From NCBI RefSeq assembly GCF_037893185.1, contig NZ_CP140772.1, forward strand, positions 3,162,001 to 3,226,000: DNA of 64,000 nucleotides, written 5' to 3'. This DNA comes from Chitinophaga sp. 180180018-3 (GTDB lineage Bacteria; Bacteroidota; Bacteroidia; Chitinophagales; Chitinophagaceae). The notes under the pieces were generated by a model. It did not search any database. It was not told the origin of the DNA and worked only from the letters and a program-made list of their open reading frames with translations. Each line of letters begins with the position of its first letter. Position 1 is the stretch's first letter. The position numbers and the translations under genes were made by a program. This document shows, piece after piece, positions 27,778-63,311 of the stretch.

Positions 27778-28881
27778 ATGGCTTTGCAAGTAGGAATTGT
27801 AGGATTGCCAAACGTAGGGAAATCAACTTTATTTAATGCGGTAAGCAACAGCGCTAAAGCGCAGGCCAGCAACTACCGTTTCTGTACTATAGAACCTAAC
27901 GTAGGGCAGGTGGATGTACCAGATCACCGTATGTATAAACTGGAAGAACTGGTAAAACCCGATCGCGTGGTACCTACTACCATCGAGTTCGTGGACATTG
28001 CCGGTCTGGTAAAAGGCGCCAGCAAAGGAGAGGGCCTGGGCAACAAGTTCCTCGCCAATATCCGTGAAGTAGATGCCATCGTACATGTGATTCGCTGCTT
28101 CGAGGATGAAAACATCCTGCGCGATGAAGGTGCTATTAACCCTGTCAGCGATAAGGAAATCATCGATACCGAATTACAGCTGAAAGACCTGGAAAGCGTG
28201 GAACGTAAAGTAGCACGCACCGAAAAGATGGCTAAAACTGGTGGCGATCCTAAAGCCAAAGCGGAATTTGAAGTACTGAAAAGATGCCAGGAACACCTGG
28301 AAAAAGGACGTAATATCCGCGAGCTCGGACTAAGCAAGGAAGAAAGAGTGGCCATTGCCGACCTGTTCCTGCTTACCGAAAAACCGGTACTCTATGTGGC
28401 CAATGTCGATGAAGCATCCCTCCATACCGGTAACAAATACTCTGAAGCACTGAGAGATGGCGTGAAGGCAGAACATGCTGAAGTGATTGTCATGAACAAT
28501 ACCATTGAAGCCCAGATCTCCGAAATGGAAGATCCGTCTGATAAGGAAATGTTCCTGGCTGAATACGGTCTTACTGAGCCCGGCCTAAACCGCCTGATCC
28601 GTTCCGCTTATAACCTGCTGGAACTAATCACCTATTTTACCGCAGGTGTGCAGGAAGTACGTGCATGGACTATCCACAAAGGCTGGAAAGCACCTCAGGC
28701 TGCCAGCGTAATCCATACCGATTTCGAAAAAGGCTTTATCAAGGCAGAAGTAATTGCCTATGACGATTTCGTAAAATATGGCTCTGAAGCAGCAGCCCGC
28801 GACAATGGACGCCTGCGTATTGAAGGTAAAGAGTACATCGTTGCCGATGGCGATGTTATGCACTTCCGCTTCAACGTATAA
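27778..28881 (+). CDS. ychF: Redox-regulated ATPase YchF (Obg-family)
   Basis: 367 residues, the standard length. The P-loop GLPNVGKST (about 9-17), DIAGLVKGASKGEGLGN switch, the NVDE segment in place of the GTPase NKxD, a helical insertion (about 140-200) and a C-terminal TGS domain (about 280-365, ending DGDVMHFRFNV) identify it. YchF/OLA1 hydrolyses ATP rather than GTP and associates with ribosomes. It is monocistronic and followed by a terminator hairpin. Confidence 0.95.
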   Translation: MALQVGIVGLPNVGKSTLFNAVSNSAKAQASNYRFCTIEPNVGQVDVPDHRMYKLEELVKPDRVVPTTIEFVDIAGLVKGASKGEGLGNKFLANIREVDAIVHVIRCFEDENILRDEGAINPVSDKEIIDTELQLKDLESVERKVARTEKMAKTGGDPKAKAEFEVLKRCQEHLEKGRNIRELGLSKEERVAIADLFLLTEKPVLYVANVDEASLHTGNKYSEALRDGVKAEHAEVIVMNNTIEAQISEMEDPSDKEMFLAEYGLTEPGLNRLIRSAYNLLELITYFTAGVQEVRAWTIHKGWKAPQAASVIHTDFEKGFIKAEVIAYDDFVKYGSEAAARDNGRLRIEGKEYIVADGDVMHFRFNV

Positions 28882-28980: not shown

Positions 28981-29105
28981 TGCTATTTGCCAATCTCAGG
29001 TAATCCCTGCACAGATAATCGTAATTCTTAATTCTATAGTGTCCGGGGAAAATTTAAGAGATCTTAGCCTAACGATTCGGGGCTTAACAAAATAGGGAAT
29101 GAGTG

Positions 29106-29168
29106 CCCTGAGAATTGAATATTTGCCTAAATCGGCAATTATGTATTTCAAATATTCAATTCTCAGGG
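29106..29168. terminator. Hairpin inside the IS, downstream of the transposase
   Basis: CCCTGAGAATTGAATATTTG pairs perfectly with 29149-29168 over 20 bp around a 23-base loop. It lies between the transposase stop and the IS end and probably stops transcription in or out. It is repeated in copy 2. Confidence 0.7.
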
Positions 29169-29194
29169 TGCCTCTAAAAAGTAAGCCCCCTTTT

Positions 29195-30427
29195 CTAAGG
29201 AGAGAATAATTTCAGTTGTATAAAGTCTGCATCTTTATTATTACAAAGAAGTGCTTTCTCCGGTTCGGTTAGAAATTTAATTAGGAGAATGTATGTGGAG
29301 AGGTGGAGTCTTAGAAAACCTGCCAGGTTGCTAAACGACCACATTCTGCAGCCCAGTTGCTTTAATTGATCTTTCACAATCTTTATAAGCAGATCTTTTA
29401 TTAAAGCGCACCATACCTGTATACTAATGGCATTCTCATTGTCTCCCAGAAAATTACTTAATTGAGAGGTCTGCTTAATTCTTTTGAATAGCAGTTCTAT
29501 ATCCCATCTCTGTTTGTACAATCTCCTAATGGTAGAACAAGCGTAGGTCTGATTGTTAGTGAGTAAGTGCACCTTCTTTTGGGTCTTTTTATCATAAATA
29601 CTAATGACTCTGGCCTGCTGCACCGGACTTTTTTTACAGGTCTTTGGGTTGCCAAGTCGGATGATCCAGTCTTTTAAAATTCCATTCTTTTTATCAGCCG
29701 ATGTTATTTTTTTGCGCTCAAGTACCTTTATTTTCATCCCTTTAGTAACCCTGGAGATCCAGGTAATATCATTTTGGGTCCAGTCTTTCATTACCGTGTA
29801 ATTTACATAAGCTCGATCCATGGCAATTATGGAGCCTGGCTCCAGGGGCAGCTTCTGCATAAATTTCCTGTCACTACAAGCGGCCTCTGTCAGTACAGTA
29901 AAGCAGGGTAACTCATCTTTGGCTCGCATCAGCACATGAGCTTTAACACCTCCTTTTTTCCTGCCATTTAACCCTTTTACACCCGCACCCTTCATCACAG
30001 TTGAAAACAGACTAATTGTTGTTGAATCCACTATAAATAATCTATCATGCAACCTGTTTCTTGTTCGGCTGTCCGGGCAATGTTGTGGATAATGGTGTTG
30101 GTATAGTAAATGATAGAGTTGGCTGAAAAAATCTACAGGGCGGTTCCTGTTGGCATCTGAAATAGTACTACGGCGAGGTGTTTTTTTAAGGCCTAGATGA
30201 TTAAGCCGATGCTCATTAGCCAATAGCCCGGTAACTAGCTCTCTAAGAGAACTACACTGATGAAAGCTGCTGAATAGCATGGTTACCAAATGGTCAAAGG
30301 CCTTAAATTGCTTGTAATAGCTGTCTGCATTAGTCTCCCTGGCCGCTTTATCGATTAAAGTGGCGGGCACAAAAGAAAGTAACTGATTAAAAATCGGCTG
30401 TCCGGAAAAAAATCTACTTTTGCTCAT
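29195..30427 (-). CDS. IS4-family transposase
   Basis: 410 residues. The N-terminal DUF4372-type segment (about 5-78: FNQLLSFVPATLIDKAARETNAD, FDHLVTMLF) is followed by a DDE domain: first Asp in IVDSTTISLF (about 153), second Asp in AMDRAYVNY (about 220), and the IS4 signature Y-x2-R-x3-E-x6-K around YKQRWDIELLFKRIK (about 315-329). It cuts and pastes the element. The protein is identical to the one in copy 2, so both copies are young and probably active. Confidence 0.93.
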   Translation of the reverse strand: MSKSRFFSGQPIFNQLLSFVPATLIDKAARETNADSYYKQFKAFDHLVTMLFSSFHQCSSLRELVTGLLANEHRLNHLGLKKTPRRSTISDANRNRPVDFFSQLYHLLYQHHYPQHCPDSRTRNRLHDRLFIVDSTTISLFSTVMKGAGVKGLNGRKKGGVKAHVLMRAKDELPCFTVLTEAACSDRKFMQKLPLEPGSIIAMDRAYVNYTVMKDWTQNDITWISRVTKGMKIKVLERKKITSADKKNGILKDWIIRLGNPKTCKKSPVQQARVISIYDKKTQKKVHLLTNNQTYACSTIRRLYKQRWDIELLFKRIKQTSQLSNFLGDNENAISIQVWCALIKDLLIKIVKDQLKQLGCRMWSFSNLAGFLRLHLSTYILLIKFLTEPEKALLCNNKDADFIQLKLFSP

Positions 30428-30464
30428 AATGGTAAGTTGTAGTGTGGTAACTTAAACTTACTAA

Positions 30465-30491
30465 AAAAGGAGGCCACATCGGCCTCCTTTT
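30465..30491. terminator. Hairpin inside the IS, upstream of the transposase
   Basis: AAAAGGAGGCC and GGCCTCCTTTT pair over 11 bp around ACATC. On the minus strand the stem is followed by T6, so it would stop read-through from outside before it reaches the transposase start at 30427. Confidence 0.7.
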
Positions 30492-30597
30492 ATTTATCCT
30501 TACCTGTATTTTCCCCGGACACTATAGATTCTTAATTCTTAATTCTTAATTCATAATTCTTTTCTTAGCTTAGCCCCTCGTTTAATTGTTAGCTCAT

Positions 30598-33500
30598 ATG
30601 CGAATTGTCAGGAACGTAAAACTCTTTTTCCGGGAAGGGAACTCGGATAAGACTTATGAAATAGACCTATGTGAAGTTGGATCAGATCAGTACCTTGTTA
30701 ACTTCAGGTATGGAAAACGTTTTGGAACCTTGAAAGATGGTACAAAAACCGTGGCTCCCGTTAAATTTACTGAAGCAACAGCGATCTTCGATGCGCTTGA
30801 AAAAGAGAAGCGGAGTAAAGGTTACCTGGGCGAGCAGGAAGCTGCGCAGGACGTATCGTTTGTACCGCCGGATACCAGCATGGTGGCCGATGTAAGGCAT
30901 CGCGCCATTCTCCGCCGCCTTCAGGATGCCCTGGAAGGAAAATCCTCATTCAGAACCGCCTGGGCTACCTCCCGCGTCATATGGAAAGCAGGGGAAGAAC
31001 ATATAAAAGAAGCAGTACCTTATCTTATAAAATTATTGGAACGAGGCGACGCCCTGCAACGCTACGCCGCTATATGGTCGTTATCGCAATCCGGCGATCC
31101 TGCTGTCGTTCCTGTGCTGCGTTCTTATGCCGACAATGGCGCATGGCCCCTGAACATCCGGATGCTGGCTGCCAACGGCGTGTTGTGGCTGCTGCCCCCC
31201 GAAGAAAGGAAGGAGTTTGTACATGGCTATCTGCAGCGATTACCGGTGGCTTTCCAGGATGCTATCGTAAGAAACGATGCGGAAAGCCTCCTCCAGCTGA
31301 TCCAGGATCAGGTGCTGATGTTGCTCCAACCGGATTATGCTTTACTGGAAGACCTTTATCTGGTATCCGCAGAATCTGAAGTAGTACGCAAGATCTTCCC
31401 GAATATATTACTGGGCCTGCCTTTAAGACCATCCTGGTTCCGGCATATACGCCATATTTTCAAACAGGCCGAATTGCGCATGGATCCCGGAGCAGTAGCT
31501 ATTCTGGCTGCCCGCTTCGAAAGAGAAGCGCCCATGTTCAAGAACCCGGGTACGAGAACGGACTATGAAGGCGAGAAATATATCCCGGAAACATTCGTGC
31601 CTTCACTGGAAACTGCATTCCAGGCCGATAAGGAACTGAAGCGGCCAACCAGTAAGCTGGCTTATTCCGACAGAACACGCCGCTATCTCCATCGTCGTGT
31701 ATTCAGGCAGTTACAGTTCTTCGGAGAGCGTAACGATATCTATTATGTACGCCTGGCCACCTCGCTGCTGCTGCAATACAACGAAGAAAGGGATGCGACT
31801 GCAGAGTACCAAACCCGCAGGTACAGCTATGTGAACGGCCGTTTTGCGACCATCTACACACAATACCCTGTTAATTCAAAACTGGTATACCTTAATTATA
31901 TACTCCGGGGAAATACACCCACATTGAAACTCCGGCCCGATGGTATGGAATGGGTGTTTAAGCAGGAAGAACCGGATGCCGGTAAAAACGCCGCTTCCAA
32001 ACCTGTGCCGGGCGCCAATCCCGACGCCCTGAAGCAACAACAGGAAAAGGGCGGCCTGATGAAGAAATTATTCGGCTGGCTGGGTGGTGATAATAAGGAC
32101 AAGCACCTACAGGCTAGTGCCATTCCGCCGGAATATAAACCAACTCCGGAGCCACCTGCACCTTTGGTAAGTGAAGTGCCGTTCCTGCATCTCTGGCGCG
32201 AACTGCCCCAGGCTTTTATCCAGCTGCTGATGCTGGCCAGAATGGAGGCCATACATGTTTTCGCCATGGAACAACTGAAAGCCCATCCGGAGTTTAATAA
32301 TCTGAAGGAGAAGATGGGGGAGGATGTGATAGCCGGACTGTTGTCCAATCCTTTCAGCATTCCTTCCATGTTTGGACTGGAACTTGCCCGCGAAAAATAT
32401 GACCCCGCCAATCCATCGCTGCGCTTATTGTATGTTATGATCATGAGTCCACTGGAACTGGCGAGGATACAGGGCTTGCAGTGGATCAGCGAAAATCAGG
32501 CGAAATGTTTCGGGGATATCGATTTCCTCGTACAGCTGATATTCTCTCCTTATAAAGATGTACGCAACTTTGCACGCAAGCAGCTGAATCCAGGCTACCT
32601 GCCTGAGGACAAGGCCCGTTCGCTGCGCGACAGATCCATTGCTGCACTGCTGGAACTGAAAACCGCCACTGACGAAGGTAATGTAAACCTCAACGATGGC
32701 TGCAGCATTCTGGAGCAACATTGCGCACCGGCGCTGGCTACAATAGAGATCGCCTCCATAGAGGCATTGCTGCAAAGCCCGGTAGCCGCCTGCCATGCTT
32801 TCGCTGCAAGGCTGTTGTTGCTGAAACAGGGAAGCTTCAATTATGCGACACTGTCTGACGCCTTGTTGAAACACCTGCTGGTGGATCCTTTCCTGCCCGT
32901 AAGAAATGCCGGGTTACAGGTATTGCAGGCGATGGGACATGAGGCCCTGCTGAAACGACCGGAATTATTACTCCATATTATATTAAGCACGTACACGGAT
33001 GTACGAAATGGTATCCGACCGCTGATAGCTCAGCTGGTGCAGCAGGATAGCAGGCTGGCAATTTACCTCGTGAACGAACTGGTGCCGTACCTGATGCGCA
33101 GGGAAGCCGTGGAAGGTATTCATGCCGATATTGAAACCATCCTGAGCAACGAACTGGTAAATTACCTGCAGGACATTGATACGGCTACAGCGCTGCGTCT
33201 TGTTTACTCCAACTACCGCCCGGCCCAGCAATTCGGTATCCTGGTACTGGATAAGTATATCCCTGTCCAGGCCTTGTCTGTAAAACAGGTGATTGCCGCC
33301 GGCAACCACGAGTTACTGAAAGCAAGAGAATGGTGCCTGAGCTTCTATTATAAGAATGTGGAGCGTATCCGTTATGAGCGCGACGCTGCGGTAGCGTTGC
33401 TGGATGCCAAATGGGATGATATCCGCCTCGGGGCTATTGAGTTTTTCCGCACACAATTCGCGGACAAGGATTGGTCGCCCGAAGCGCTGGTTGCCGTGGC

Positions 33501-33942
33501 CGACAGCGTACGTCCGGATGTACAGGCATTTGGCCGTGAGCTGTTGCTGCGTTTCTTCCGTGAGGAAGACGGCCCGGTTTACCTGATGAAGCTGAGCCAG
33601 CATCCCAGCGAAAGCATACAGCTGTTTGCCACCGGGTATCTGCAGCGTTTTGCTGCCGGTAACCTGGAGTACCTGAAACAGCTGGAACAGTATTTCCGCG
33701 TGGTGCTCAGCCGGGTGAACAAGGCCCGTGCCGCCAAAGAAAGGATCTTTGCATTCCTGGAACAGGAAGCGCTGAAGTCGGAAGACGCCGCCAGGTATAT
33801 CGGGCATATCATTGCACATATTTCCGCAACGGTGGCCATTGGAGACAAGGCCCGCTGTATCAGCATCATGCACAATATCCAGGCGAAGTTCCCCATAGAA
33901 CTGCCCATCCGGATCATACCAACAGTAACCAGAGTGTCTTAA
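30598..33942 (+). CDS. WGR-domain / HEAT-ARM repeat protein of a type XIII-like retron
   Basis: 1114 residues from ATG 30598 (an in-frame TTG at 30586 adds four residues). Residues 1-~80 form a WGR domain, a nucleic-acid-associated module known from PARPs; the usual W-G-R is Y-G-K-R-F-G here (about 41-46). The rest is almost entirely alpha-helical HEAT/ARM-like repeats (about 95-230, then 590-1100), broken by a low-complexity, proline-rich linker near 470-530. No catalytic motif is visible. It is followed after 15 bases by the SWIM protein gene and then by the retron RNA and RT. I infer an effector or sensor scaffold in the retron defence complex. HEAT-repeat WGR proteins also occur with MoxR/VWA systems, which are absent here. 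Confidence 0.8.
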   Translation: MRIVRNVKLFFREGNSDKTYEIDLCEVGSDQYLVNFRYGKRFGTLKDGTKTVAPVKFTEATAIFDALEKEKRSKGYLGEQEAAQDVSFVPPDTSMVADVRHRAILRRLQDALEGKSSFRTAWATSRVIWKAGEEHIKEAVPYLIKLLERGDALQRYAAIWSLSQSGDPAVVPVLRSYADNGAWPLNIRMLAANGVLWLLPPEERKEFVHGYLQRLPVAFQDAIVRNDAESLLQLIQDQVLMLLQPDYALLEDLYLVSAESEVVRKIFPNILLGLPLRPSWFRHIRHIFKQAELRMDPGAVAILAARFEREAPMFKNPGTRTDYEGEKYIPETFVPSLETAFQADKELKRPTSKLAYSDRTRRYLHRRVFRQLQFFGERNDIYYVRLATSLLLQYNEERDATAEYQTRRYSYVNGRFATIYTQYPVNSKLVYLNYILRGNTPTLKLRPDGMEWVFKQEEPDAGKNAASKPVPGANPDALKQQQEKGGLMKKLFGWLGGDNKDKHLQASAIPPEYKPTPEPPAPLVSEVPFLHLWRELPQAFIQLLMLARMEAIHVFAMEQLKAHPEFNNLKEKMGEDVIAGLLSNPFSIPSMFGLELAREKYDPANPSLRLLYVMIMSPLELARIQGLQWISENQAKCFGDIDFLVQLIFSPYKDVRNFARKQLNPGYLPEDKARSLRDRSIAALLELKTATDEGNVNLNDGCSILEQHCAPALATIEIASIEALLQSPVAACHAFAARLLLLKQGSFNYATLSDALLKHLLVDPFLPVRNAGLQVLQAMGHEALLKRPELLLHIILSTYTDVRNGIRPLIAQLVQQDSRLAIYLVNELVPYLMRREAVEGIHADIETILSNELVNYLQDIDTATALRLVYSNYRPAQQFGILVLDKYIPVQALSVKQVIAAGNHELLKAREWCLSFYYKNVERIRYERDAAVALLDAKWDDIRLGAIEFFRTQFADKDWSPEALVAVADSVRPDVQAFGRELLLRFFREEDGPVYLMKLSQHPSESIQLFATGYLQRFAAGNLEYLKQLEQYFRVVLSRVNKARAAKERIFAFLEQEALKSEDAARYIGHIIAHISATVAIGDKARCISIMHNIQAKFPIELPIRIIPTVTRVS

Positions 33943-33957
33943 AACAGTCGTCCATTT

Positions 33958-35610
33958 ATGTTATTCAACTACAGATATAGCGGTAATTCTCAGGTGTACA
34001 GCAATGCTACCTCCTCCGGGATCTCATTTGCCCCGGATACCCACCGCGACCCGACCTTTTTCGTAGGAAAACTGCATAAGAAAATAGCTTTTCGCGAAGC
34101 CATATCAGCATTGCATGATGTGGTGATTTCCGATCTGCGCTTTAAACCCAAAGACAAAACCGCTTATAAAGAATGGGCCGCCCAACAGGAAGATCTGTGG
34201 CTGGCAGAATATATGAGTGGCTACGACGTTCAGGCTGCCAACCAGCGCATCGAAGAGGTAAGCAAACAGCTGTCGGATATTTATGCGGAAAGCGCTAAGG
34301 TAACGGCGCCTTTCTATAATGCCCGCAAGCAATATTTCAATTACCTGTATGAGAAAGACCGCGACGCCTGGTTCGTACTGGACCCCGTGATCAGTGTACA
34401 TCCTGATGAGGTGTTCTTCGAATGTTTCAGCCAGGACGAATCTACGTACGGGAAACTTAGCGCCAGCTACAATGTGTTCAAAGAGATAAACGAATTTGAA
34501 TGCGGTACCACCAACATCGATTATTCGTCAGCGTTATATAACGAATTTCAGAAGATCAGGGACTATAAGGAAACAGATTTCCGGATAGATCCGGGAGGGT
34601 TTCAGGTGCAGACCTCACAGGAAGAGCTGTATCATGAAGTGAAGATCGACCTGCCCGACAGTTGGGTGAGAGGCTTCCTTCAGGTAAGCGCTGCGATGAC
34701 TTTGCCGGCAGCTACTTTCGATCTTCACCCGATGGATGTTTATAATTTCTGCTCCTGGCTGCGGCGGTTCAAAGAAAAGAAAGGGCCACGCTCTATCCGG
34801 TTCATATTGGAACCTGGCAAACCGGTAAAGGCCATCTTTGAGCCCTGGAATCACGAAGTCGTATGTGCGAGATCGTTATACACCGGCGCGCAACGAAGAG
34901 AGATCCGGATATGGGGCAGAAGACGGTTGCTGATACTGGAACGACTGATCCCCGCTGCAAGGAAATTCACTGTACACCTGACAGGAAACGGGTTGCCGTC
35001 GTTCTACATCGCCGACCTGGGCGATATGCAATTCACACTCGGGCTGAGCGGATGGACGGCCAACGACTGGTCGCGCGCAGGTCAGTTTGATCTGATGGCG
35101 CCCAGAGCCTTTGTGGATGATACTGCGAAGCTGGCGGTTTATGAGGACCTGAAAACAAGGTGGATGGCCAAACCGGAAACCATTGCCCAGGCTACCGGGT
35201 TAGACAGGGCTACCGTGCTGGGCGCTCTGGGCATCTATACACAGGCCGGTAAAGTGATCTACGACCTGCATACAGGCTTATACCGCCGGAGAGAGTTGAG
35301 CAGGGAACCGCTTCCGCTTGATCAGCTCCGGTTTTCTAATCCGCAGGAAGCAGAAGCCAGCCGCCTCGTGAAAAACGGCAAAGTAGAGGTACAAGGCGTA
35401 CACGTGCCGGGAACAGGGTTACAGCTGAAAGGGAATGTTAAATCCACACAGCGTGTATACCATCCCGTTATAACCATAGATGCGGACGAACGACTGAGTG
35501 ACGGACATTGCGACTGTGGATTTTATAATATGAACAAGCTATACAAAGGGCCCTGCGAACATATGCTGGCTATTCGTATCGCTTACGCAGAAAATAATGA
35601 AACAAAATAA
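33958..35610 (+). CDS. Winged-helix SWIM zinc-finger protein (WHSWIM) of the retron
   Basis: 550 residues. The C-terminus holds a SWIM zinc finger, CxC-x12-CxH with Cys518, Cys520, Cys533 and His535, preceded by VYHPVITIDADERL. Residues about 395-450 (KPETIAQATGLDRATVLGALGIYTQAGKVIYDL) look like a winged helix. The N-terminal 390 residues match nothing I recognise. SWIM fingers bind DNA or proteins. The gene starts 15 bases after the WGR/HEAT gene and is separated from the RT gene only by the retron RNA region. This gene pair plus RT is the content I recall for type XIII retrons. Its role, effector or RNA-protein assembly factor, is inferred. Confidence 0.8.
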   Translation: MLFNYRYSGNSQVYSNATSSGISFAPDTHRDPTFFVGKLHKKIAFREAISALHDVVISDLRFKPKDKTAYKEWAAQQEDLWLAEYMSGYDVQAANQRIEEVSKQLSDIYAESAKVTAPFYNARKQYFNYLYEKDRDAWFVLDPVISVHPDEVFFECFSQDESTYGKLSASYNVFKEINEFECGTTNIDYSSALYNEFQKIRDYKETDFRIDPGGFQVQTSQEELYHEVKIDLPDSWVRGFLQVSAAMTLPAATFDLHPMDVYNFCSWLRRFKEKKGPRSIRFILEPGKPVKAIFEPWNHEVVCARSLYTGAQRREIRIWGRRRLLILERLIPAARKFTVHLTGNGLPSFYIADLGDMQFTLGLSGWTANDWSRAGQFDLMAPRAFVDDTAKLAVYEDLKTRWMAKPETIAQATGLDRATVLGALGIYTQAGKVIYDLHTGLYRRRELSREPLPLDQLRFSNPQEAEASRLVKNGKVEVQGVHVPGTGLQLKGNVKSTQRVYHPVITIDADERLSDGHCDCGFYNMNKLYKGPCEHMLAIRIAYAENNETK

Positions 35611-35642
35611 TGAGGTGAGCTGATTTTTTCCGGAATATTCTC

Positions 35643-35650
35643 TATCTTGC
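35643..35650 (+). promoter_or_regulatory. Weak candidate promoter for the retron RNA
   Basis: TATCTTGC matches TAnnTTTG except for the last two bases. A start about 6 bases downstream would begin the RNA just before the a1 arm. No -33 TTG is seen, and transcription could equally come from the upstream genes. Confidence 0.2.
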
Positions 35651-35662
35651 TGACTCGTTAAA

Positions 35663-35914
35663 ACAAAGATCTTTGTAAAGAGGAATTGATTGCACTTGCG
35701 CCCGAAAAGGGACGAATGATGTTTCGTCATTCAGGTATTCTGACTATACATGCTTCACTAAATGCAATCTTTACTTTGGGAGGGGCCTACCATACGTATA
35801 TTTCCGGTAGCAGCCCCGAGGGCTGAAATATTACGTATGGTAGGCCCCTCCCTGGAGTTGATTGATTTAGTCAATGGTTTGCACGAAGGCCTTTTCCTCT
35901 TTACAGAAATTTGT
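35663..35914 (+). ncRNA. Candidate retron msr-msd RNA
   Basis: The 408-base gap before the RT carries every element of a retron RNA in order. a1 (35672-35685, TTTGTAAAGAGGAA) pairs with a2 (35894-35907, TTCCTCTTTACAGA) over 14 bp with one wobble, and about 4 more pairs are possible outside one mismatch. After a1 come a G-rich start (candidate priming G between 35687 and 35697) and a small msr hairpin GACGAA-tgatgt-TTCGTC (35711-35728). The large msd hairpin follows (35778-35852), then a2, and the RT starts 111 bases later. a1 also overlaps a perfect 14-nt palindrome (35663-35676). Exact ends and the branch G are not determined. Confidence 0.75.
35778..35852 (+). repeat. msd-like long hairpin
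   Basis: The outer stem is 21 bp and perfect (35778-35798 with 35832-35852). A single-base bulge, six more pairs, an asymmetric CGGTAG bulge and a CAGCCC-cga-GGGCTG tip follow. There is no T-run after it (CCTGGAGTTG), so it is not a rho-independent terminator. This fits the reverse-transcribed part of msDNA. Confidence 0.8.
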
Positions 35915-36018
35915 TTCCCCTCTCAGCATTAGCATCTCCGGTTTATCTTCTCATCTCCCCAGATAATTTTATTACTGCTTATCAGTATTAACAGGATCAG
36001 CATACAAAAGTATTTATC

Positions 36019-37530
36019 ATGTTCTTAACCCGACAACAGATTTACGACAGAATACGTGCTTCCTCCAAAGAGGAATATATACTGGGAGAAATGCAACGCC
36101 TGGGTTTCTGGCCTGCAAACCAGCAACTGCCTGTTCCTCCGGCGCCGCTGCTGCAACAACGCGATGTGCTGCAAAAGCAGCTGAGCGAACTGCTCGAACA
36201 ACGTAACCGTTATAACAGCAGGAGAAAAATGCTCGACGACATGCGCAAAGCCCGCATGGCCAAGGCTAAGCTCAAACGCCAGGAAACAAAGAAACGCCGG
36301 GAAGAAGCCCGCAAACAAAGGGCAGAAGCCTGGACCGAAAAGAAAGCCGCGGAAATCGTATATCTGGGAGAAGACGTATCAGCCGGACTAAATAAAGTAA
36401 CGCCGGATGTTGCCCGGCTGGAGCAATACGGTTTGCCCGTTTTCGCTGATGCCGTTGCGCTGGCAGGTGCTATGAGTATCAGCATCGGACGCCTTCGCTA
36501 TTTGTCGTTTAATAGAAAAGTAGGTCACCATACACATTATCAGCGTTTTCAGATCCCCAAAAAATCAGGGGGCACCCGGGTGATATCTGCCCCCATGCCG
36601 CAACTCAAAGCTGCCCAGCATTGGATCCTTGAAAATATCCTGTATAAAATAAAGAACAACGCCGCCGCGCACGGTTTTGTGCCCGGCAGGTCTATCGTTA
36701 CCAACGCTGCACCACATATCGGAAAAGACCTCGTGATCAATATCGATCTGAAAGATTTTTTCCCCTCTGTTGCCTACAAAAGAGTAAAAGGACTGTTCTG
36801 CAAACTTGGTTATGCCGAACAGGTGGCTACCATTCTCGCCCTTATTTGTACAGAACCGGAGGTAGATGAAATAGAGCTGGATGGTCGTAAATACTACGTT
36901 GCCAAAACAGAGCGCCACCTGCCGCAGGGTGCGCCCACCAGTCCGGCTATTACCAACCTGATCTGCTATAAACTCGATCGCCGGTTTACCGGGCTCGCTG
37001 CAAAATACGGTTACGCCTATACGAGATATGCAGATGATATGACTTTTTCTGCCAGTGGCGCGGCAGCCGAAAAAGCCGGACAACTGCTGCGTGCCATAAA
37101 AATGTTTGTGAAGGAAGAAGGATTCGTCATCCATCCCGATAAGCTGAAAGTAATGCGGAATGGAGATAAGAAAGAAGTGACCGGTATTGTGGTAAATGAA
37201 AAACTCAGTCTCGATCGTACCACCCTCCGTAAATTCCGTGCGCTCCTGCACCAGGTTGCTAAAACAGGACTGGCGGGGAAAAGCTGGGGCAAAGGGAAAA
37301 ATATCATCAGCAGTATGGAAGGTTATGCCAATTTCGTATTCATGGTAAAACCTGAACTGGGCGCCAAACTGAAAGAAACATTGGCGGCCCTGTTACAGCG
37401 GGATGATATCAAAGCCGAGGCAAGAAACTTATGGACTGGAAACGGACACACAAAACAATCCTCAGCAATTAATAATCCTCCATCCAATCAGGCGGAAACA
37501 GGAGATAAGCCCTGGTGGAGCGTAGTATAA
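36019..37530 (+). CDS. Retron reverse transcriptase
   Basis: 503 residues. The RT core spans about 170-460: first catalytic Asp243 in NIDLKDFFPS, QGAPTSP (303-309), YADD (337-340) with the two other catalytic Asp residues, and retron hallmarks NAAPH (229-233, the NAxxH of region X) and VTG (387-389, region Y). The N-terminal ~165 residues are an extra part: a strongly basic, coiled-coil-like helix (about 45-110, rich in K/R/E/Q) and a linker with YLGEDVSAGLN. Typical retron RTs are about 300-400 residues, so this is long. It should copy the msd part of the RNA just upstream and stay bound to the msDNA as part of a defence complex with the WGR/HEAT and SWIM proteins. Group II intron RTs are excluded by the lack of a maturase domain. 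Confidence 0.9.
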   Translation: MFLTRQQIYDRIRASSKEEYILGEMQRLGFWPANQQLPVPPAPLLQQRDVLQKQLSELLEQRNRYNSRRKMLDDMRKARMAKAKLKRQETKKRREEARKQRAEAWTEKKAAEIVYLGEDVSAGLNKVTPDVARLEQYGLPVFADAVALAGAMSISIGRLRYLSFNRKVGHHTHYQRFQIPKKSGGTRVISAPMPQLKAAQHWILENILYKIKNNAAAHGFVPGRSIVTNAAPHIGKDLVINIDLKDFFPSVAYKRVKGLFCKLGYAEQVATILALICTEPEVDEIELDGRKYYVAKTERHLPQGAPTSPAITNLICYKLDRRFTGLAAKYGYAYTRYADDMTFSASGAAAEKAGQLLRAIKMFVKEEGFVIHPDKLKVMRNGDKKEVTGIVVNEKLSLDRTTLRKFRALLHQVAKTGLAGKSWGKGKNIISSMEGYANFVFMVKPELGAKLKETLAALLQRDDIKAEARNLWTGNGHTKQSSAINNPPSNQAETGDKPWWSVV

Positions 37531-37614: not shown

Positions 37615-40482
37615 CTACAAATTATACCCCAGTGAAATATACCACTGGGAACCAATCGTAGGGTTACCCCACGATTGCGTGTACTTCTTATTCAATATAT
37701 TCACACCTCCCAGCTTCACGGTAGTTTTTGCTTTCGGGAAGAATTTGCTGACCATGGCATCCAGTGTTCCAAACGCAGGTATTTCGCTCAGCCCGGCCAC
37801 GTTCACATTCGGTCCTACAAAAGAAGACTGCCAGATGAACGATTGCTGCCACTTCCAAAGAATGTTGAAAGCAAAGTTCGAATTCGCAATGTTGCGGTTA
37901 CCGAAATTCAGACTGTATCTTACTTTTGGCGTATTATACATCGCGAGGAAAGTACCCAGATCCTTGCCGTTGGAGAGTTCGTTATAAGAAATATTTCCAC
38001 CTGCCGTGAAATTCAATGGCAGGCTGTAATCGAGTCCCAGCGCCCATCCCCAGGATTTTACAGTTTGTTGTGCACTTACAGGAATAGAAAAGATATTGTT
38101 CTTTCCAGGCGTAGTGGTAGGTTGTACCAACACCTGAATGCCATTCATATTTTTGAAATCATTTTTATAGATGTAGGCATCAATCAGCACCCTTTCTGCA
38201 ATCACCGCTTTGTATCCCACTTCGTAGGCCTGTATCCTTTCAGGTTTGAATTCGCTGAAGGTATACTGCTGAGGATTGCCCGCCTGTACAGATTGCAGCG
38301 AGAATACCGGTCCTTTGTCCAGTCCGTAACGTTCACGCAGGAACGGTAAACCTCCGATCAGATGCGCCTGTGGCGTCACAAGGTCTATATACTGATCCTG
38401 GTTGGTAGGAATACGGAAGCCGGTTTGGTAAGACAGGCGGATGTTGTGGCTGTTCAGGAAAGTATACACGGCTGAAATACGTGGACTGAACTGCCCCTTG
38501 AAATTCATGTTCTTGTCGTAACGAATAGAACCAGTGAGTTTCAGGTGATCGTCGATCAGTTTTTTCATCACCTGTACGTACCCGCCATATTCGTTGATAC
38601 GGAACTCTTTGCCGGCATCGTCCAGCGCAAACAGCGTTTTTTCAGAATTTAATACATAGCGGCGGTAGTTAGCGCCCACCAATATCTCTGCGAAATGGAT
38701 CAGGTTATGAAAGTTGTACATAAACTCTGCCTGGTACAGATTGGTTTTATCCGTGAATTTAGCGCCAACACCGGAAGCATCACCAGGAATAGGCTTGCTT
38801 TTCACTTTATCTGCTGCTGCATTGAATTCAGGCGTACCGGGTATCAGCCGGCCCTGGTCGGCATATTGCCGGGCGCCGCTGATGAATGCACCGCGCTGGG
38901 AAGCTACCGCTGCGGAAGCCGCGCTCATGGCATCTGCCGGGCTCTTTCCCTGCTGAAGCGCACCCTGGAAAGTTTGTGCGAACAATGTTCCGGCGCCTTT
39001 GCCATAGGCCCCGAAATAATCGGTATACCACTGCTGGCTGCTTTTCCAGGCTTCATTGATGCCGGAAGCCAGTGTACCACCGGCGTAGCTGTCGCCGGAT
39101 CTTTCCTGTGTAGTATATAATCTTACATAGAAATCAGGATGCCGTAATTCCAGCTTGTACTGACCCATGTTGAAGTTTTTTAAGGAATAGCGATCCGCTC
39201 CTGTATATACTGAAGTTCCTGCACCGTAGCTGCCTTGCACAATACCTTCCAGCTTTTCTGTAAACCGGTAATGGAGTGCAGCATTCAGTTTGAGGTTTTT
39301 GGTTGTATAGTCCACCACATCCGCTTCATTGTAGCCGGTACGCGTAACGGTCGACATATTCGGTGCCGGGAGTATAGCGTTGTACATCTGTTGCGCAGTT
39401 ACCGCATTCCCTACAGCGGCTGCCAGCTGATTCAGCTGGGGCATCAGGGAGCCTTGCAATGCCGCGTACATATTCTGGGAAAACTCATCTCCATAGGTGT
39501 TCACCCCGTTATAGCCTTCATTGTTAGCCCTGGTGCCATCTGCCAGCGTGTGGCCGTTGGCAAGGCTCTGGTCTCTTTTGTCGTAGGCCTGCCAGTCTTT
39601 CGCCTGGAGGTAACCCACATTAAGTTTGAATGCTACTTTATCATTGAAGGCATGTGCATACCTTACTGATACATCATAGAAACCCGTGGTGGCAGTAGTA
39701 CGTCCGTTGTCGTTCAGAAAGCCGGTTTTCACAAGGGCGCTCAGGCCCTGGTACTGGAAAGGATTTTTACTGGTCATCAGCACGATCCCATTCAGTGCGT
39801 TAGGCCCGTACAGTGCGGATGCTGCTCCGGGGATCAACTCCACATTATCCAGATCCAGTTCAGGAATGCCTACCATGTTGGCTACGGAAAAGTTAAGGCC
39901 CGGCGCCTGATTATCCATACCATCATTCAGCTGCAGTACACGCGTATTACCGTTGCTGTTGAAGCCACGTGTATTTACTGATTTGAAGGTAAGGCTCTGG
40001 GTACTCATTTCTACGCCTTTCAGATTACCAATAGCATCGTAGAAAGAAGCAGCAGGAGAGGCTTTGATAGCCCTGGCATCCAGCTTTTCAATAGATACCG
40101 GCGATTGCAGAATGCTTTCCTGTACGCGACTGGCTGCCACCACCACTTCCTGGCCAATGATCTCCGTGGAGCTGAGTTCTACCGATATTTTATCCGTAGC
40201 AGCACTCACTTGCTGCTCTGTGGTTTTGTAACCTACGTAAGAAAATACCAGTGTCAGGGGAAAGGAGTGGTTGGTCTTAAGACTGAAAACGCCGCCACTG
40301 CCTGTGATGGTGCCTGCGGTGGCGCCTTTGATACTTACTGTAACACCAGGCATGACGTTGCCGGTTCCTTTTTCATGTACAATACCATTGATCGTGACGG
40401 TCGACTGAGCAAGTACCAGCCCGGTAAGGGACAATAAAAGCACCAGACAGCCAAATAGGGCTTTTAATAGAATGCTTCTCAT
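37615..40482 (-). CDS. TonB-dependent outer-membrane receptor
   Basis: 955 residues. A signal peptide (1-25, ending VLAQ) is followed by a carboxypeptidase-regulatory-like domain (about 29-110; GTGNVMPGVTVSIKG, FSYVGYKTTEQ), a plug (about 125-235; RGFNSNGNTRVLQLNDGMDNQ, SALYGPNALNGIVLMTSKNPF) and a long beta-barrel ending in the aromatic-rich C-terminus QWYISLGYNL. It imports an unknown ligand across the outer membrane with TonB energy. There is no SusD partner next to it, so it is not a classical SusC/SusD glycan pair. It is monocistronic and closed by the shared terminator. Confidence 0.88.
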   Translation of the reverse strand: MRSILLKALFGCLVLLLSLTGLVLAQSTVTINGIVHEKGTGNVMPGVTVSIKGATAGTITGSGGVFSLKTNHSFPLTLVFSYVGYKTTEQQVSAATDKISVELSSTEIIGQEVVVAASRVQESILQSPVSIEKLDARAIKASPAASFYDAIGNLKGVEMSTQSLTFKSVNTRGFNSNGNTRVLQLNDGMDNQAPGLNFSVANMVGIPELDLDNVELIPGAASALYGPNALNGIVLMTSKNPFQYQGLSALVKTGFLNDNGRTTATTGFYDVSVRYAHAFNDKVAFKLNVGYLQAKDWQAYDKRDQSLANGHTLADGTRANNEGYNGVNTYGDEFSQNMYAALQGSLMPQLNQLAAAVGNAVTAQQMYNAILPAPNMSTVTRTGYNEADVVDYTTKNLKLNAALHYRFTEKLEGIVQGSYGAGTSVYTGADRYSLKNFNMGQYKLELRHPDFYVRLYTTQERSGDSYAGGTLASGINEAWKSSQQWYTDYFGAYGKGAGTLFAQTFQGALQQGKSPADAMSAASAAVASQRGAFISGARQYADQGRLIPGTPEFNAAADKVKSKPIPGDASGVGAKFTDKTNLYQAEFMYNFHNLIHFAEILVGANYRRYVLNSEKTLFALDDAGKEFRINEYGGYVQVMKKLIDDHLKLTGSIRYDKNMNFKGQFSPRISAVYTFLNSHNIRLSYQTGFRIPTNQDQYIDLVTPQAHLIGGLPFLRERYGLDKGPVFSLQSVQAGNPQQYTFSEFKPERIQAYEVGYKAVIAERVLIDAYIYKNDFKNMNGIQVLVQPTTTPGKNNIFSIPVSAQQTVKSWGWALGLDYSLPLNFTAGGNISYNELSNGKDLGTFLAMYNTPKVRYSLNFGNRNIANSNFAFNILWKWQQSFIWQSSFVGPNVNVAGLSEIPAFGTLDAMVSKFFPKAKTTVKLGGVNILNKKYTQSWGNPTIGSQWYISLGYNL

Positions 40483-61818: not shown

Positions 61819-63311
61819 CTATAGTGTCCGGGGAAAATTTAAGAGATCTTAGCCTAACGATTCGGGGCTTAACAAAATAGGGAATGAGTGCCCTGAGAAT
61901 TGAATATTTGCCTAAATCGGCAATTATGTATTTCAAATATTCAATTCTCAGGGTGCCTCTAAAAAGTAAGCCCCTTTTCTAAGGAGAGAATAATTTCAGT
62001 TGTATAAAGTCTGCATCTTTATTATTACAAAGAAGTGCTTTCTCCGGTTCGGTTAGAAATTTAATTAGGAGAATGTATGTGGAGAGGTGGAGTCTTAGAA
62101 AACCTGCCAGGTTGCTAAACGACCACATTCTGCAGCCCAGTTGCTTTAATTGATCTTTCACAATCTTTATAAGCAGATCTTTTATTAAAGCGCACCATAC
62201 CTGTATACTAATGGCATTCTCATTGTCTCCCAGAAAATTACTTAATTGAGAGGTCTGCTTAATTCTTTTGAATAGCAGTTCTATATCCCATCTCTGTTTG
62301 TACAATCTCCTAATGGTAGAACAAGCGTAGGTCTGATTGTTAGTGAGTAAGTGCACCTTCTTTTGGGTCTTTTTATCATAAATACTAATGACTCTGGCCT
62401 GCTGCACCGGACTTTTTTTACAGGTCTTTGGGTTGCCAAGTCGGATGATCCAGTCTTTTAAAATTCCATTCTTTTTATCAGCCGATGTTATTTTTTTGCG
62501 CTCAAGTACCTTTATTTTCATCCCTTTAGTAACCCTGGAGATCCAGGTAATATCATTTTGGGTCCAGTCTTTCATTACCGTGTAATTTACATAAGCTCGA
62601 TCCATGGCAATTATGGAGCCTGGCTCCAGGGGCAGCTTCTGCATAAATTTCCTGTCACTACAAGCGGCCTCTGTCAGTACAGTAAAGCAGGGTAACTCAT
62701 CTTTGGCTCGCATCAGCACATGAGCTTTAACACCTCCTTTTTTCCTGCCATTTAACCCTTTTACACCCGCACCCTTCATCACAGTTGAAAACAGACTAAT
62801 TGTTGTTGAATCCACTATAAATAATCTATCATGCAACCTGTTTCTTGTTCGGCTGTCCGGGCAATGTTGTGGATAATGGTGTTGGTATAGTAAATGATAG
62901 AGTTGGCTGAAAAAATCTACAGGGCGGTTCCTGTTGGCATCTGAAATAGTACTACGGCGAGGTGTTTTTTTAAGGCCTAGATGATTAAGCCGATGCTCAT
63001 TAGCCAATAGCCCGGTAACTAGCTCTCTAAGAGAACTACACTGATGAAAGCTGCTGAATAGCATGGTTACCAAATGGTCAAAGGCCTTAAATTGCTTGTA
63101 ATAGCTGTCTGCATTAGTCTCCCTGGCCGCTTTATCGATTAAAGTGGCGGGCACAAAAGAAAGTAACTGATTAAAAATCGGCTGTCCGGAAAAAAATCTA
63201 CTTTTGCTCATAATGGTAAGTTGTAGTGTGGTAACTTAAACTTACTAAAAAAGGAGGCCACATCGGCCTCCTTTTATTTATCCTTACCTGTATTTTCCCC
63301 GGACACTATAG
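61819..63311 (-). mobile_element. IS4-family insertion sequence, copy 2 (1493 bp)
   Basis: It has the same inverted repeats (CTATAGTGTCCGGGGAAAA at 61819; mirrored end at 63311) and the same transposase as copy 1. It is one base shorter because a C5 run near the transposase stop is C4 here. The 10-bp target duplication AATTAGGAAT flanks it (61809-61818 and 63312-63321). It sits in the left arm of a large palindrome downstream of the CDF gene. Confidence 0.92.
61979..63211 (-). CDS. IS4-family transposase (copy 2)
   Basis: 410 residues, identical in sequence to the copy 1 product, with the same DUF4372-type N-terminus, DDE residues and Y-x2-R-x3-E-x6-K signature. Both internal hairpins (after the stop and before the start) are also kept. 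Identity between copies implies recent transposition. Confidence 0.93.
   Translation of the reverse strand: MSKSRFFSGQPIFNQLLSFVPATLIDKAARETNADSYYKQFKAFDHLVTMLFSSFHQCSSLRELVTGLLANEHRLNHLGLKKTPRRSTISDANRNRPVDFFSQLYHLLYQHHYPQHCPDSRTRNRLHDRLFIVDSTTISLFSTVMKGAGVKGLNGRKKGGVKAHVLMRAKDELPCFTVLTEAACSDRKFMQKLPLEPGSIIAMDRAYVNYTVMKDWTQNDITWISRVTKGMKIKVLERKKITSADKKNGILKDWIIRLGNPKTCKKSPVQQARVISIYDKKTQKKVHLLTNNQTYACSTIRRLYKQRWDIELLFKRIKQTSQLSNFLGDNENAISIQVWCALIKDLLIKIVKDQLKQLGCRMWSFSNLAGFLRLHLSTYILLIKFLTEPEKALLCNNKDADFIQLKLFSP

Follow-up and report, generated by a model that had tools for sequence, protein, structure and literature searches.

The window analysed here, a stretch of 64,000 nucleotides, belongs to a single 8.13 Mb contig of Chitinophaga sp. 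180180018-3, and three plus-strand open reading frames (ORFs) together with one structured gap occupy its positions 30598-37530. Retrons are reverse transcriptase (RT)-based cassettes thought to protect bacteria from viruses, and the profile matches make it virtually certain that the cassette described here is a retron of type XIII. Its ORFs encode a WGR-HEAT protein, a winged-helix protein with a SWIM zinc finger (WH-SWIM) and an RT; the first two lie 15 bases apart, and a gap of 408 bases separates the second from the RT gene (Table 1). For each of the three proteins the top PADLOC model is the type XIII one, the next RT model reaching 322 bits, about 310 lower.

The retron classification of Mestre and colleagues of 2020 reportedly includes type XIII, a name used here in the sense of the PADLOC models. 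All its presumed hallmarks, an RT of the corresponding group, a WGR HEAT/ARM gene and an adjoining WH-SWIM gene, are found here by profile scores and structure models, as are the general marks of a retron, an msr-msd RNA with a1 and a2 arms beside the RT gene and an RT with the NAxxH and VTG motifs. An earlier note on this DNA had read it as a complete type XIII-like retron, with the same gene positions and spacing and the only large gap at the place of the RNA. The ORF list and the three PADLOC matches bear this out; judged by profile scores the RT does not fall outside the retron clades, and it is not usually found without its partners, since 33 of 37 RT relatives in named genomes have both. 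As far as sequence can tell, the cassette is an intact, constrained and chromosomally inherited member of an already known retron type.

Table 1. Positions of the retron features and of neighbouring elements in the window
Feature	Position	Strand	Basis
WGR-HEAT protein, 1114 residues	30598..33942	+	PADLOC WGR_XIII 1127 bits; WGR matches in relatives; AlphaFold2; Foldseek
WH-SWIM protein, 550 residues	33958..35610	+	PADLOC SWIM_XIII 802 bits; invariant CxC...CxH
Predicted clamp-like core, residues about 140-365	34375..35052	+	model, fold matches, conservation; only 251-360 (about 34708-35037) well modelled
Winged-helix region, residues 386-446	35113..35295	+	model secondary structure; weak scattered Pfam HTH matches in few members
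SWIM zinc finger region, residues 501-545	35458..35592	+	Pfam SWIM PF04434, barely over the cut-off
Candidate -7 promoter box TATCTTGC of the retron RNA	35643..35650	+	TA[ACT]CTT before a1 in 40 of 44 genomes
Retron non-coding RNA (msr-msd), ends approximate	35655..35912	+	folding, covariation, cross-phylum alignment
a1 arm	35674..35685	+	pairs with 35894-35905; 99.8% of alignment cells paired
Candidate branching G, the invariant G of TTGC	35692..35692	+	invariant in genus and cross-phylum alignments; putative role
msr stem-loop	35714..35732	+	compensated pairs in the genus and across phyla
msd	35757..35871	+	lower stem 35757-35769 with 35860-35871; long hairpin 35778-35852
a2 arm	35894..35905	+	pairs with a1
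Retron RT, 503 residues	36019..37530	+	RT_XIII 636 bits; Ec86 RT 3e-74; N-terminal extension about 1-130, Trp-Trp tail 499-500
ychF, left neighbour of the conserved site	27778..28881	+	named from sequence
TonB-dependent receptor, right neighbour of the conserved site	37615..40482	-	named from sequence
Insertion sequence, outside the retron	29034..30527	-	10-bp target duplication ATTCTTAATT; ends 70 bases before the first retron gene

A predicted clamp-like core in the WH-SWIM protein

That the second protein carries a SWIM zinc finger, as the earlier note had stated, is supported by a Pfam match just above threshold (19.8 bits against a cut-off of 19.6) and by the CxC...CxH residues 518, 520, 533 and 535, which are invariant in 32 aligned SWIM sequences (L018 and L034, with broken frames, being left out). 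This description turned out to be incomplete in that the core of the protein also appears to hold a clamp-like domain. In the AlphaFold2 model, which has a mean predicted local distance difference test score (pLDDT) of 61, residues 251-360 reach about 82 and show a strand, a helix and three strands, occurring twice, which we take to be the element order of one sliding-clamp domain. A Foldseek search of the PDB with this model gave 332 chains at E ≤0.001 (best 8e-7, probability 1.00), and the best 50 of the 332 are all PCNA or 9-1-1 clamp entries; among the matches listed, target TM-scores are mostly 0.5-0.6 over about 250 columns, with a root-mean-square deviation (rmsd) of mostly 7-10. A viral fold library gave 52 matches at E ≤0.001, and 27 of the 50 listed have clamp-type names (PCNA, beta clamp/DnaN, DNA polymerase III or processivity factor), the remainder comprising one named ribosomal protein and otherwise almost entirely unnamed or uncharacterised proteins. 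The fold search does not return clamps by default, because the WGR-HEAT model gave solenoids among the matches listed. The top viral match, BFVD A0A1C7A3Q1_1, is an uncharacterised 804-residue protein of Haloarcula californiae icosahedral virus 1 whose alignment covers 481 columns, beyond the clamp core, at an rmsd of 20.

The core is also the most conserved large region of the protein, with 56 of 110 and 41 of 116 positions (97 of 226 in all) invariant in the 32 sequences. Among them are Arg321-323 and Arg329, which lie on one helix of the clamp-like domain; in a clamp this helix would face the DNA, and it is a candidate DNA contact. The same region is present in SWIM proteins of the genus that are paired with DUF6493 proteins, and the genome of the window encodes its own DnaN elsewhere. 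On the strength of the model, we consider it likely that the core holds a domain of the DNA sliding-clamp fold. It is called clamp-like rather than a clamp because no clamp was found by sequence matching among the families and PDB sequences shown.

The WGR-HEAT protein

The first protein consists of a WGR domain (residues 1-80, about 30598-30837) followed by a helical-repeat solenoid that extends to about residue 1097 and contains in the AlphaFold2 model (mean pLDDT 86) a beta hairpin at 404-423 and a low-confidence loop at 458-520. An alternative in-frame TTG start 12 bases upstream is possible. The Pfam WGR family scores below its cut-off in the window protein (17.8 against 22 bits) and is matched in all 32 aligned relatives at E up to 1 (best 2e-10; the short L024 and L037 were left out). 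WGR domains in PARPs bind nucleic-acid ends. The Foldseek matches listed are HEAT/ARM-type solenoids, with no enzyme that covers more than the solenoid, and no enzyme motif or domain was found in the Pfam scan of the relatives or in the model, in agreement with the scaffold lacking enzyme motifs that the earlier note had seen here. Across both partner proteins no enzyme family is supported by Pfam or NCBIfam in more than a few members, and the NCBIfam scan of the pair gave nothing useful. Invariant positions concentrate in the WGR domain and the C-terminal fifth, and the protein is the fastest-diverging part of the cassette (mean identity 0.59, against 0.81 and 0.73 for the other two proteins).

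The reverse transcriptase and its C-terminal tail

The RT gives a strong match to Pfam RVT_1. Its three motifs, all of them named in the earlier note, are located at residues 229-233 (NAAPH), 337-340 (YADD) and 387-389 (VTG). Among 36 aligned RTs (L034 and L036 left out), H233, Y337, D339, D340 and G389 are invariant and N229, A230, A338, V387 and T388 are at least 90% conserved. The C-terminus ends in a tail of Trp-Trp and hydrophobic residues tethered by a variable linker; every one of the 44 genus genomes has WW among the 7 final RT residues, in 37 of them as KPWW. The Trp-Trp tail recurs in nine of the 20 other aligned RTs; the remaining 11 comprise two with aromatic variants (L024 and L031), six cyanobacterial RTs and L038 without a tail, and two from Vibrio with hydrophobic ends. 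The latter, from Vibrio penaeicida (L022 and L023), carry in place of the tail additional C-terminal sequence, whose hydrophobic segments are membrane-like. The tail might act as a docking peptide, though hardly one meant for the SWIM protein alone, because it is also carried by the L017 locus of a Cytophagales metagenome-assembled genome, where a type XIII-like RT with an N-terminal extension is found with no WGR gene, SWIM gene or RNA motif in 17.5 kb.

The retron RNA

The 408-base gap contains an outer 17-nt inverted repeat (88% complementary) and a 21-bp perfect hairpin, and it folds better than all of 100 shuffles (z -9.7); Rfam gave no match for it at the gathering scores. The RNA is present in all 44 genus genomes with a full cassette. 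In an alignment of these 44 RNAs (41 distinct), 98.7% of the cells are paired and 17 of 78 pairs show double changes, with 14 such pairs in the msd hairpin helix. The covariation score is 0.172 against 0.055 for shuffles (none of 500 as high) and at most 0.036 for slid partners, the structure having been derived from the scored alignment itself, which favours structure, and the shuffles ignoring relatedness; the number of further pair types is not above that of shuffles (262 of 500 as high). Outside the genus, 13 RNAs from 12 of the 17 motif-bearing loci (all except L022, L023, L030, L033 and L034) enter a cross-phylum alignment of 16 RNAs, in which 16 of 25 predicted pairs are compensated, the lower stem of the msd included. 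The sequences TTGC and GAGTTG...AGTC...CGAAG are kept in 16 of 16, a result owed in part to the choice of the loci by the second motif; the AGTC place reads AGTA in L022 and L023 and GGTC in L034.

In 40 of 44 genomes a TA[ACT]CTT box precedes a1 at a distance of 9-34 nt, compared with a mean of 3.2 and at most 9 for letter shuffles, these 44 sequences being related and so not independent. In some genomes it occurs as TTTG-N19-TATCTTTC, a form that would agree with the Bacteroidota promoter consensus. The retron RNA thus probably has its own promoter.

In a sample of 395 genomes of the phylum the strict RNA motif occurs in 3, including that of the window, with none among the matches listed for a reversed control. 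The motif also had three matches in viral contigs: none has an RT, SWIM or WGR gene by tblastn, and the two that were examined resemble chance. In a Verrucomicrobia contig (L024, 4192-4713) a single RT is preceded by a tandem pair of type XIII-like RNAs whose hairpins differ.

The gene set in other genomes

Two of the 33 RT relatives with both partner genes have broken frames (L018 and L034). Of the 18 non-Chitinophaga loci that have both partners, 17 contain the RNA motif (14 by pattern and 3 as near-matches), L037 being the miss; the motif is present in none of the four RT loci without partners, one of which (L036) is a 4.8-kb contig that starts at the RT and is little informative. Three Chryseobacterium loci (L020, L025 and L035) have the order RT, WGR, SWIM; the RNA still precedes the RT there, and the partner genes remain adjacent. 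The 16 RTs of the genus are monophyletic with support 1.0 in a tree of 36 RTs.

SWIM_XIII was found in only 4 of 119 further relatives (198 searched). The SWIM protein had no match in 50,697 phage records or in viral contigs, and a single one in 72,556 plasmid records, which is a 2.8 Mb Methylobacterium record. In a Methanosarcina acetivorans control, SWIM_XIII matched at E up to 0.001 and not at 1e-60, and RT_XIII at E up to 1e-30.

Inheritance in the genus

Full-length SWIM_XIII is found in 44 of 79 Chitinophaga genomes and RT_XIII above 600 bits in 45, the extra one being G053 (L116:983-2389), in which a deletion fuses the first SWIM residues to the RT in one open frame. The cassette sits at the same site, between ychF and a TonB-dependent receptor, in 25 genomes, the receptor being 69-83% identical to that of the window in the other 24; the exceptions in layout are an insertion sequence (IS) at the left in the window and about 2.4 kb extra at the right in G058. 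A second fixed site, in 17 genomes, is marked by one common downstream gene, histidine-kinase-like by sequence, and the cassettes of G034 and G010 lie outside both sites. In 32 of 34 genomes without the cassette a TonB receptor lies within 700 bases of ychF; 22 of these receptors are at least 60% identical to that of the window, and 10 are only 46-49% identical and may be other receptors.

On the ychF tree, with G053 treated as present, cassette presence needs 6 changes compared with a shuffled mean of 25.7 and minimum of 19 (500 shuffles), and several of the 34 genomes without the cassette fall inside carrying clades. For the 25 genomes of the first site, trees of the flank and of the cassette have 15 of 22 splits in common, against at most 2 in 200 label shuffles. 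Some recombination or error exists because 4 and 5 well-supported splits conflict between the two trees. The 17 second-site cassettes form one split and the 25 first-site ones do not, being intermixed with those of G010 and G034; for G010 the pattern points to a within-genus transfer, its retron grouping with that of G034 and its ychF lying elsewhere. The ratio of nonsynonymous to synonymous substitution rates (dN/dS) is 0.044-0.139 for WGR, 0.016-0.059 for SWIM and 0.027-0.074 for RT in 16 hand-chosen pairs, 5 of them without flanking-gene comparators, which shows purifying selection on all three coding sequences. Where flank data exist (11 pairs), synonymous divergence tends to be near the receptor value and higher than the ychF value, with a difference of about 2.5-fold at the most. 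No internal stop interrupts the WGR, SWIM and RT matches in 44 of 44 genomes; the genome search flagged a TGA in the RT of G042, yet its frame is open from the start to the Trp-Trp tail and it was not counted as broken.

By these comparisons the cassette is inherited in place across part of the genus. A recent horizontal arrival was rejected on the synonymous divergence, the flank and cassette trees and the few changes on the ychF tree. For retrons of myxobacteria, vertical inheritance was described by Rice and Lampson in 1995, as cited in a later article (PMC8867640). A defence island was likewise rejected, the neighbours being non-defence-like by sequence; the PADLOC scan of the neighbours covered the transposase only.

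The IS is inserted between ychF and the retron. A second copy at 61819-63311 has the 10-bp target duplication AATTAGGAAT, and both copies carry DUF4372 and a DDE transposase. Recent activity of this element is suggested because the two copies have identical transposase genes and 10-bp duplications.

Discussion

The explanation that in our view accounts best for the data, a type XIII retron with a DNA-acting complex of the clamp-SWIM and WGR-HEAT proteins, has as a whole about an even chance of being right. The retron RNA would be made both from its own promoter and within the operon, and the RT would copy the msd hairpin into multicopy single-stranded DNA (msDNA), which would remain linked to the RNA. 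The WGR-HEAT protein and the clamp-like/winged-helix/SWIM protein would assemble on this RT-msDNA particle, where the Trp-Trp tail of the RT might serve as a docking peptide and the arginine helix might contact DNA, and the msDNA would restrain the DNA-acting complex. A phage infection that alters or binds the msDNA would then cause the pair to leave or to change shape and to act on DNA, most likely through a block of replication rather than an enzyme activity of its own, and the cell would stop before phage release. Such a DNA-acting abortive mechanism is a possibility that we place somewhat short of even. A bolder proposal, which we hold to be doubtful, is that type XIII represents clamp-based DNA surveillance: the SWIM clamp and WGR-HEAT would be parked on the RNA-DNA duplex of the retron, docked by the tail in many lineages and released onto cellular or phage DNA upon an attack on replication, the system being a long-inherited and nearly fixed part of two clades here.

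Several observations weigh against the explanation favoured here. The clamp fold rests on one model built from 32 sequences with an effective number of about 2, and our confidence in it was lowered slightly, from rather likely to likely, because residues 141-250 are modelled poorly, with an average pLDDT of only about 39. No clamp was seen among the Pfam and PHROGs families shown for the SWIM protein at E up to 1, in Pfam for the SWIM paralogs at E up to 10, or among the PDB sequence matches of the protein at E up to 1. A pattern search found no canonical PCNA-interacting peptide (PIP) box in 36 RTs and one in 32 WGR proteins. As for docking, the six cyanobacterial and the two Vibrio RTs have no such tail, and L017 has one although its 17.5 kb contain no partner genes. 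Finally, defence cassettes are not usually kept in fixed places by vertical descent for so long.

In the foremost alternative, which we consider unlikely, the retron was recruited for a lasting cell function, for instance to monitor DNA ends or replication, and anti-phage activity would no longer be its main role in the genus. The two fixed sites, the first with non-defence neighbours by sequence, the few presence changes on the ychF tree and the near absence of the SWIM protein from phage, viral and plasmid sequences all fit such a role. However, the cassette is dispensable, as 34 of 79 genomes do without it, several of them inside carrying clades, and the WGR-HEAT protein diverges fastest, as the part engaged in an arms race might. 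The same rapid evolution can be read in another way, with WGR-HEAT as a toxin that binds and thereby blocks a host target, its antitoxin or carrier being formed by the clamp-SWIM protein and the msDNA. The large solenoid, with the clusters of invariant positions noted above, and the adjacency of the partner genes even in the reordered Chryseobacterium loci are compatible with this; nevertheless no enzyme motif or domain is seen in the protein, and we regard a toxin as quite unlikely.

It is very unlikely that the clamp-like protein simply serves the RT as a processivity or positioning factor that holds the template and is docked by the Trp-Trp tail. The predicted fold and the linker-tethered tail, which is universal in the genus and frequent in other RTs, would suit such a factor, but homologous SWIM proteins adjoin a DUF6493 protein without an RT, the tail is missing in cyanobacteria and present in the partnerless L017, and no other retron is known to need a clamp. 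That the cassette is a decaying relic, as the IS 70 bases upstream and the SWIM-RT fusion in G053 might hint, is largely refuted by its intact frames in the window and in the matched stretches of 44 genomes, a dN/dS of at most 0.139 in the 16 pairs and a nearly invariant RNA.

For a type whose mechanism is poorly understood, the predicted clamp-like fold gives a testable lead, and it raises the questions of whether the SWIM protein forms rings, binds the msDNA duplex or docks the RT tail. The 44 orthologous cassettes and the empty sites in relatives form a natural series that separates constraint on the RNA from constraint on the proteins and lets defence be weighed against a role in the cell, and the covarying RNA supplies helices and likely ends for making msDNA.

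Among the papers searched, retron type XIII is named in one, as a PADLOC match in Variovorax (PMC11953036); the term XIII does not occur in the main text of PMC12548924 or PMC12262390. The literature matches listed contained no paper on a type XIII mechanism, and their titles and abstract starts no clamp in SWIM proteins, most subscription papers lying outside the search.

The cassette has the three proteins, gene order and RNA position in common with the type XIII retrons as modelled in PADLOC; what is described here in addition is the fixed-site inheritance across part of the genus, the predicted clamp-like core and the RT tail. With the PCNA, 9-1-1 and DnaN sliding clamps the SWIM core has the predicted fold in common, whereas it lacks a match at the sequence level and is fused to a winged helix and a SWIM domain. 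Closer by sequence are the SWIM proteins that are paired with DUF6493/DUF7824/DUF7825 proteins in the same genus, homologous along the greater part of the sequence (369 columns, probability 99.6). In contrast to the retron, no RT gene was noticed beside these pairs in the ORF lists, and their large partner shows no detectable relation to WGR-HEAT (profile comparison probability 4), for which reason DUF6493 was rejected as a relative of the latter. Five such loci were seen (L111, L112, L113, L115 and L118), three of which were scanned and have the DUF6493/DUF7824/DUF7825 partner; a search for DUF6493 in the genome of the window gave no match, and neither did its controls.

Ec86 (Eco1) is the solved RT closest by sequence (3e-74 over 345 profile positions), although the match starts at profile position 132 and the N-terminal extension of type XIII is therefore not common to both. 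Ec86 is not known to have a WGR-HEAT or a SWIM partner. In the type IX retron Kva2 a complex holds a HEPN RNase until an msDNA-binding phage protein acts as the trigger (PMC13405049). Like the arrangement proposed here, it combines an effector and a winged-helix protein with msDNA, the sensor, in a single complex. It differs in its effector, no HEPN family being among the Pfam matches shown for the present cassette. Kva2 is the nearest worked example of the logic proposed for this retron, and not of its parts.

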